Below are positions 36,351 to 38,453 of a stretch of 47,908 bases of DNA, in pieces. Source of the stretch: Rhodothermales bacterium (GTDB lineage: Bacteria; Bacteroidota; Rhodothermia; Rhodothermales; JANQRZ01). The notes under the pieces were generated by a model, which was given only the letters and a program-made list of their open reading frames with translations, was not told the DNA's origin and did not search any database. Location: contig JBDUXZ010000035.1 of assembly GCA_039944855.1 (NCBI GenBank), forward strand, positions 1-47,908. The letters run 5' to 3'. The first letter of the stretch is position 1. Every line of letters starts with the position of its first letter. The position numbers and the translations under genes were made by a program.

Positions 36351-38453
36351 ATGCCCAGCTTCTCTCTCTCCACTCCTACTCGGCACCTCGCCGTCCTCCT
36401 CCTCGCGACGGTACTCCTCGCCGCCTGCGACCTCGCGGACCCCGTCCTCGATGACGCCCGTCCGCCCAGCGCGGAACCCCTCGCCGCTGCCAGTGCCCCC
36501 CAAGGCGCCAGCAAGCTCCGCCACAGCCACCTCCTCGACCGGGCCAAGCGCACCGGCGAGGCCGCACGCGGCGGCGAGGCCGAGGGCTACATCGGCCTCA
36601 TCGTCGGGCTCGACCCGTACCGGATCATCGAGCGCTACGGCGAGATCGACCCGTACCGGATCATCGAGCGCTACCAGGACATGGATCCGTACCGGATCAT
36701 CGAGCGCTACCAGTATTCCGACGTGTTCGCCGGGTTCGCCATCTGGGTGGACGAGGACGAGGCCGACGCCCTCCTCAATGACATGGCCGCCGACGACGAG
36801 ATCGCGTGGGTGGAGCCCGACATCAAGATCCTCGCGACGCCGCTCGGCAATATGACGTACTCCGAAGGCGGCGCGGAGATGACGCCGTGGGGCGTCGCCC
36901 GCATCGGCGGCGGCGGCCTCGACGGCTCGGGGGTCGACCTCTTCGTGATCGATACGGGCATCGACAGCGGGGACGTCACGACGGGGCCTGGGTTCGACTT
37001 CGTCCATGAAGCCAACGCCTCGGGGCAGGATCTCGACGGGCACGGCACCCACATCGCGGGCACCGCCGCCGCCCTCGTGAACGGGCAGGGCTCCGTGGGC
37101 ATCGCCCCAGGCACCACCATCCACGACCTCCGCGTGCTCACCGGGCACGAAGTCGACGACAACGAGAGCCCCGTCGACCTCTCCCGTGCCATCGCGGCCG
37201 TCGAGCACGTCACGGCCTACAAGCTCGCGAACCCGAACCGGCCCGTCGTGGTGAACTTCAGCCTCGGGGCCGAGATCGGCACGACGGCGTACAACGCCCT
37301 CGACGAAGCCATCGTGGCCTCGACGGCCGTGGGTGTGGTCTACGTCGTCGCCGCGGGCAACGATGGCATCGACGCCTCGACGGTGACGCCGGCCCACGTG
37401 GCTGAGGCCATCACGGTCGGCGCCTACGGGCAGGACGATCGGTTCGCCTCGTTCTCGAACTACGGCGCTCGCCTCGACATCCTCGCCCCCGGCGTGGACA
37501 TCGTGTCGACGGCGCCGTCGTCGACGGGCCTCGCGGTCATGTCCGGCACGTCGATGGCGGCGGCCCACGTCTCCGGTGCCGCAGCGGCGTTCCTCGCGGC
37601 CAACCCCACAGCCACCCCCGACCGCGTGGCGCAGTCGATCGTCGGGACCGCACAGCCCGGGATCGCTGGGGTCCCCGCCGGCACGGCGTCGGCATCGGTG
37701 TACGCCGGGCCCCGCGGGCTCATGAGCGCGAGCGTCCCCCCGTTCTTCCAGTACGCCCTCACGGCCGGCGACGACGTGAAAGTCCTCTCTGGGAACCTCT
37801 CGGTCCGCGTGGGTGGCTCGGGCGCTCCCAACGCGAGCGTGTTCGCGAACGACCGGCTCCACCTCCCGCTCCGAGGGTCGGAGTTCGAGGGCTTCGGCTA
37901 TTACGGAACGAGCGCCGATCGGCCCTACTCGTTCCGCCCGGCCTACAACCCGAGCGGCCTCCCGACGACGATGGCACAGCCGCCCATCGACGTGCCGGCT
38001 TTCCGCGCCCAGGACTACGCCCACCTCGCGACGGCCTCGACGGGGACGTACCACCTCGCAGGTCGGCTCCAGATGGGCACGGCGGAGCAGCCTTCGATCC
38101 TGTACGTCAACGGCGACCTCGTCGTAAGCGGCCCCGCGCACTTCACGGGCTACGGCATCGTGCTCGTTACCGGGAACGTCTACGTGAATAGCCGCATCAC
38201 CTCGCCCACCGACGGGAGCACCCGCCTCGGCATCTACGCCAACGGAGACATCACCGTCACCGCTGCCAGCTCGAACGTAGCCGCGCAGGTGTTCAGCGCG
38301 GGCGACATCATCCTCCGCGCCCCGACCACGATCTACGGGAGCGTGACCGCCGGCGACGACGTGCAGGTGGAGACGGCCGGGGCCGTCGTGCACTACCGCA
38401 CGGCTTCCCCTGCCCTCACCGAACCGTTCTGGCCGATGGCGGGCCAGCACTAA
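36351..38453 (+). CDS. Subtilisin-like lipoprotein protease with a repeat inserted in its propeptide
   Basis: 700 residues. Lipobox VLLAAC (Cys26). An I9-type propeptide (about 78-165: YIGLIVGL ... VFAGFAIWVDEDEADALL ... IAWVEPDI) is interrupted by three exact copies of DPYRIIERY with a 12-residue period (88-122). The S8 catalytic domain follows: Asp201 in VIDTGID, His231 in DGHGTHIAGT, oxyanion Asn in AAGND and Ser401 in SGTSMAA. The C-terminal part (about 460-700) is beta-rich, with a LYVNGDLVVSG ... GIYANGDITV ... VFSAGDIIL ladder suggesting a beta-helix/bactofilin-like fold. Likely a cell-surface protease that frees itself by cutting the propeptide. The first gene after a terminator, so it is its own transcript. 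Confidence 0.9.
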   Translation: MPSFSLSTPTRHLAVLLLATVLLAACDLADPVLDDARPPSAEPLAAASAPQGASKLRHSHLLDRAKRTGEAARGGEAEGYIGLIVGLDPYRIIERYGEIDPYRIIERYQDMDPYRIIERYQYSDVFAGFAIWVDEDEADALLNDMAADDEIAWVEPDIKILATPLGNMTYSEGGAEMTPWGVARIGGGGLDGSGVDLFVIDTGIDSGDVTTGPGFDFVHEANASGQDLDGHGTHIAGTAAALVNGQGSVGIAPGTTIHDLRVLTGHEVDDNESPVDLSRAIAAVEHVTAYKLANPNRPVVVNFSLGAEIGTTAYNALDEAIVASTAVGVVYVVAAGNDGIDASTVTPAHVAEAITVGAYGQDDRFASFSNYGARLDILAPGVDIVSTAPSSTGLAVMSGTSMAAAHVSGAAAAFLAANPTATPDRVAQSIVGTAQPGIAGVPAGTASASVYAGPRGLMSASVPPFFQYALTAGDDVKVLSGNLSVRVGGSGAPNASVFANDRLHLPLRGSEFEGFGYYGTSADRPYSFRPAYNPSGLPTTMAQPPIDVPAFRAQDYAHLATASTGTYHLAGRLQMGTAEQPSILYVNGDLVVSGPAHFTGYGIVLVTGNVYVNSRITSPTDGSTRLGIYANGDITVTAASSNVAAQVFSAGDIILRAPTTIYGSVTAGDDVQVETAGAVVHYRTASPALTEPFWPMAGQH
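36612..36719 (+). repeat. Three tandem 36-bp repeats in the protease propeptide
   Basis: Three units of 36 bases start at 36612, 36648 and 36684. The 27 bases encoding DPYRIIERY are identical in all three except for a GAC-to-GAT change in the last; the 9-base spacers (GEI, QDM, QYS) differ. In-frame expansion by slippage or unequal exchange is the likely origin. Confidence 0.95.

Follow-up and report, generated by a model that had tools for sequence, protein, structure and literature searches.

The window analysed here, a whole stretch of 47,908 nucleotides from a Rhodothermales bacterium (contig JBDUXZ010000035.1), carries a triple repeat in the propeptide of a lipoprotein subtilase. This repeat is probably the lineage's form of an old and slowly evolving structural array of six-residue units (hexads) within an I9-like prodomain, with a putative role in the maturation of the protease. 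No report of this hexad array was found in the open-access literature searched.

The repeat array and its host protein

The host gene (36351..38453, plus strand) is an open reading frame of 700 amino acids belonging to the S8 subtilases (Pfam E=2.3e-38; PF00082 with 132.6 bits against a cut-off of 21.8). The catalytic triad, taken from conserved alignment columns, is formed by D201 (36951-36953), H231 (37041-37043) and S401 (37551-37553), and a structure comparison dominated by the catalytic domain identified PDB neighbours at Z about 30. The protein is classed as a bacterial lipoprotein from reading the sequence by eye, being preceded by a signal peptide (36351..36428, plus strand) with the lipobox LLLATVLLAAC (residues 16-26) ending at Cys26. 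Triad, fold and order of the prodomain elements are like those of S8 proteases with an I9 propeptide (PF00082 and PF05922), such as subtilisin, aqualysin I and proteinase K.

Two further regions of this protein were noted. Downstream of the lipobox nearly all members of the family contain the motif K[LVIF]R[HN]xHLL or a similar one, present in the window as SKLRHSHLLDR (36510-36542) and helical in part in the model. The C-terminal part (about residues 460-700; window about 37731-38450) is without Pfam or NCBIfam match and is conserved in the related proteins L005, L006, L013, L014, L015 and L016.

The repeat comprises three in-frame units of 36 bp (36612-36719), each encoding DPYRIIERY followed by GEI, QDM or QYS. 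Their translations are DPYRIIERYGEI for unit 1 (36612..36647), DPYRIIERYQDM for unit 2 (36648..36683) and DPYRIIERYQYS for unit 3 (36684..36719), all on the plus strand. The preliminary description of a triple repeat with nine-residue cores and near-identical DNA was confirmed, with a single base differing among the three 27-nt cores (GAC/GAC/GAT). Tandem Repeats Finder reported a period of 36, 2.9 copies, 91% matches and a score of 166, the highest of any array in the window. Nine residues is the longest peptide occurring three times in the reading frame, versus 3-4 in 1000 codon shuffles, and a degenerate DNA pattern for DPYRIIE matched its own genome at these three places only. Aligned with the five KVLDRY units of relatives, the stretch 36621..36710 (plus strand) reads RIIERY-GEIDPY-RIIERY-QDMDPY-RIIERY. 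In this register the 12-residue unit reads as two hexads, and the window array as five, three of them canonical and two altered to xxxDPY.

Prodomains of the subtilisin class act as chaperones of the enzyme and inhibit it until they are removed. The Pfam I9 profile matched the whole protein weakly (E=0.05) and the propeptide alone with 18.6 bits (E=0.0031), below the gathering cut-off of 21.2. This match spans profile positions 35-76 and starts just ahead of the third unit. The AlphaFold model, which covers residues 27-455, contains E54-61, H63-70, H75-83, E90-95, E102-108, H109-121 and E125-130 (strand 1 at 54-61 in the numbering of the fragment). The I9 order of strand-helix-strand-strand-helix-strand is present, the slot of helix 1 being filled by two short helices, and confidence in the repeat is moderate to low (pLDDT about 49-73). 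Strand 1 is predicted at 36588..36611 (YIGLIVGL); units 1 and 2 are predicted as helix and unit 3, with the I9 profile match, as prodomain strand 2; strand 3, helix 2 and strand 4 follow at 36732..36818, placed by the model and the profile match, all on the plus strand. The claim of an I9-like lipoprotein subtilase propeptide with repeats in its middle is supported, the I9 match itself staying below gathering. The wording that the units split the propeptide was right about their place in its middle and imprecise otherwise, as the third unit itself is strand 2 in the model.

The last hexad aligns with the strand 2 region of I9 prodomains. Known I9 prodomains have one helix 1, which is not repetitive; in contrast, the region from helix 1 to strand 2 is formed here by two to seven similar hexads. 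A relative with 6x KIVDRY was modelled with helices at 49-55 and 68-75 and a strand at 83-88, so placed that unit 1 and the surroundings of unit 4 are helix and the last unit is a better predicted strand. Units 2-3 have low confidence and the middle units a pLDDT under 50; the alignments behind the models were 13 sequences deep. In a relative lacking a hexad at strand 2 (protein 6), KVLERY falls in the helix-1 portion of the I9 match. An identical hexad sequence, predicted both as helix and as strand with low to moderate confidence, may therefore be a chameleon. Beta-branched residues are favoured in the last unit (P=0.02, or 0.10 once near-duplicates were removed), a preference that is only suggestive.

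Hexad arrays in the order

Close homologs were identified in 33 of the 114 genomes of the order, and most of these have tandem repeats of six residues in the corresponding position. Tandem hexads of the form x-phi-phi-[DE]-R-[YF], 3-7 per gene, occur in 34 related subtilase genes of the order, invariably located between strand 1 and strand 3 and with the last unit coinciding with strand 2. The types found include KVLDRY, KIVDRY, KVLERY, RILERY, EVVDRY, KLVDRY and KLFRRY, among others. DNA patterns, whose counts are lower bounds as some unit types lie outside them, gave 16 stretches for two degenerate hexads in a scan of about 85,000 species, each stretch reading as this propeptide; tandem hexads in 19 of the 114 genomes of the order and in none of 130 other genomes of the class, with zero matches for the reversed control; and the 12-residue spacing in three genomes among 395 of the phylum, all from this order and one of them (G033) matching through plain RILDRY hexads. 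The titles of the 16 stretches are mostly Rhodothermia, Rhodothermales, Rhodothermaceae or Bacteroidetes/Bacteroidota MAGs, and one is only "bacterium". This lipoprotein subtilase family with its hexad array is found in a single bacterial order (Rhodothermota-type genomes).

In the catalytic-domain tree the window protein is nested in a clade whose outer members carry an array of KVLDRY x4 and a KILERY-like x4 array; the 12-residue form is thus most likely derived from hexads.

Other variants were observed among the relatives. One protein (L028) contains RILERYGSLSSS twice followed by five RILERY, a second case of alternate hexads being altered, as in the dodecads of the window. A ten-residue version, (YGVTRRVLDS)n, reaches about eight copies in propeptides of a related clade (L017, L021, L074 and L066), and unit lengths of 6, 10 and 12 are all present in the subtilase family. 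Hexad-like motifs were also identified in an insert just ahead of the catalytic His, in L021 (DILERYGLLERFALMERFAW...GHGTH) and L071 (GILDRYSETM...GHGTH), and upstream of strand 1 in other relatives (KFLSRHKVLERYEELAASND in L056). Paralogous proteases of the family adjoin in three genomes: G034 (contig 1, 2098974-2104544), G030 (contig 324) and G024 (contig 158). In the first of these the adjacent protease genes differ in hexad sequence.

Copy number and conservation of the units

The number of hexads is stable within the genera compared and ranges from 2 to 7 units across genera. Four species of g38 (5x KVLDRY) have 5,5,5,5 copies, four species of g47 (6x KIVDRY) have 6,6,6,6, and the three dodecads are present in 3/3 genomes of f1, the family of the window. 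Close relatives in f1, g38 and g47 do not show the differences in copy number that define a hypervariable or phase-variable repeat. The other two of the three f1 genomes belong to a different, sister genus, and their orthologs, at 60% identity, have these three units as well, but with other residues, LDTYKILDRYGELD(T/L)QKILDRYQE(M/V)DEYRILDRYEYDHVF, that is KILDRY/KILDRY/RILDRY where the window has RIIERY in all three. The sister-genus ortholog is close to synonymous saturation (0.68 vs 0.62). The recent expansion put forward in the preliminary description does not agree with these orthologs nor with the constant hexad counts within genera.

Much of the near identity in the DNA of the window array can be put down to codon bias at high G+C. 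Eight of nine codons are common to all three units; given the amino acids, local codon usage, taken from five genes of the window, predicts 4.8 (P=0.013). This modest excess, along with RIIERY in every unit against the KILDRY/KILDRY/RILDRY of the sister genus, suggests that the window array was homogenised after the genera split, its number unchanged. Homogenisation specific to this lineage is the part of the preliminary interpretation that gains weak support from these two features.

Over the 34 genes and 156 hexads, identity between hexads is 0.90 inside one gene and 0.61 across genes, and reached at most 0.66 when units were dealt at random among genes; hexads were chosen by a pattern restricting each position to few residues, which leaves this contrast unaffected. 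Arg at position 5 was found in 156/156 units, an invariance partly built in by that pattern, and all units are identical in 18 of the 34 genes. Synonymous identity in many arrays is close to the chance agreement computed from each gene's own codon usage (for example 0.42 vs 0.40, 0.42 vs 0.42, 0.43 vs 0.43, 0.38 vs 0.39 and 0.33 vs 0.39), and neighbouring units pooled gave pS 0.65 and pN 0.066. The identical protein with synonymous codons at random level indicates that in many arrays protein-level selection, and not ongoing conversion, holds the hexads identical. Of the arrays with at least three units, about a third have synonymous similarity above chance (nominal P<0.05, uncorrected for multiple tests), which indicates that duplication or conversion also happens and is not rare everywhere. 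Diverged DNA at a fixed copy number in all relatives, named at the outset as the finding that would speak against a dynamic repeat, is seen in several genera but not throughout the relatives: one genus differs from another in its count, and the DNA of some genes is still more alike than expected.

Explanations and meaning of the array

An expandable repeat, its unit number often altered by slippage or unequal exchange so that protease activation is tuned, is improbable. The near-identical 27-nt cores, codon identity beyond bias, the spread of unit number across the family and the several relatives with excess synonymous similarity are in its favour, but the sister genus retains the same three units at 60% identity, and within genera the number is constant with synonymous codons at random level. 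The array resembles phase-variable or minisatellite-type coding repeats in its short in-frame tandem units and, in the window, in their near-identical DNA; unlike them, its copy number is stable within genera and its DNA has diverged in many relatives. A feature of the DNA itself without protein role (mobile palindrome, recombination site or codon-bias artefact) would agree with the share of near identity due to codon bias in the window. It was rejected and is hardly credible, as the synonymous sites of relatives are scrambled while the protein stays identical, and all hexad-pattern matches fall in a single protein family, always in the same reading frame.

Two explanations at the protein level were also considered, both of them unlikely. 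The units could serve as spacer, cleavage ladder or bait in an insert that is flexible or sacrificial and needs no defined fold, as the low model confidence of the middle units and the varying unit number among genera would allow; however, every unit is strongly constrained at protein level, as the pooled pN and pS indicate, the Arg is invariant and strand 2 holds the last unit. Only slightly less favoured are repeated docking motifs for another protein, such as a partner protease or a secretion or outer-membrane factor, with the prodomain fold not their main role. The conserved short core phi-phi-[DE]-R-[YF] and the hexad-like motifs that some relatives carry upstream of strand 1 and in the insert before the catalytic His fit with docking, but the placing of arrays exactly between strand 1 and strand 3, with the last unit as strand 2, does not.

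In the preferred explanation, that of a structural array, the hexads would fill the I9-like prodomain from helix 1 through strand 2. Arrays would rarely be re-made through in-frame duplication or conversion, and purifying selection would afterwards hold each unit to the shared sequence. Because the early units would form helix and the last unit strand 2, the array would be part of the chaperone and inhibitor fold that releases the active protease. Copy number would determine how long the helix-1 region is and would not act as an on/off switch. In the window array, the Asp-Pro of the xxxDPY hexads would cap the two short helices.

An addition to the structural array, which we regard as a long shot, is that the prodomain folds in several registers, any of several units serving as strand 2, and so works as a register-sliding folding aid or inhibitor. 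It comes from the interchangeable hexads of one protein and from the same sequence being predicted as helix and as strand. If true, it would explain why the units of one protein stay identical while their common sequence drifts from clade to clade.

A survey of protein repeats (Persi, Wolf and Koonin 2016, PMC5120217) reported faster divergence among the copies of one protein than among orthologs, with homogenisation mostly in repeats of variable copy number. The hexad arrays are like the conserved tandem repeats of that survey in their long retention and in the likeness of copies within a protein, and unlike its general trend in having protein-identical units, a nearly constant number and randomised synonymous sites. 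They would represent a short repeat inside a functional fold that is kept nearly identical unit by unit while its shared sequence shifts in step between clades, contrary to the reported trend of diverging copies. Their setting in a subtilase prodomain makes the role of the hexads directly testable.
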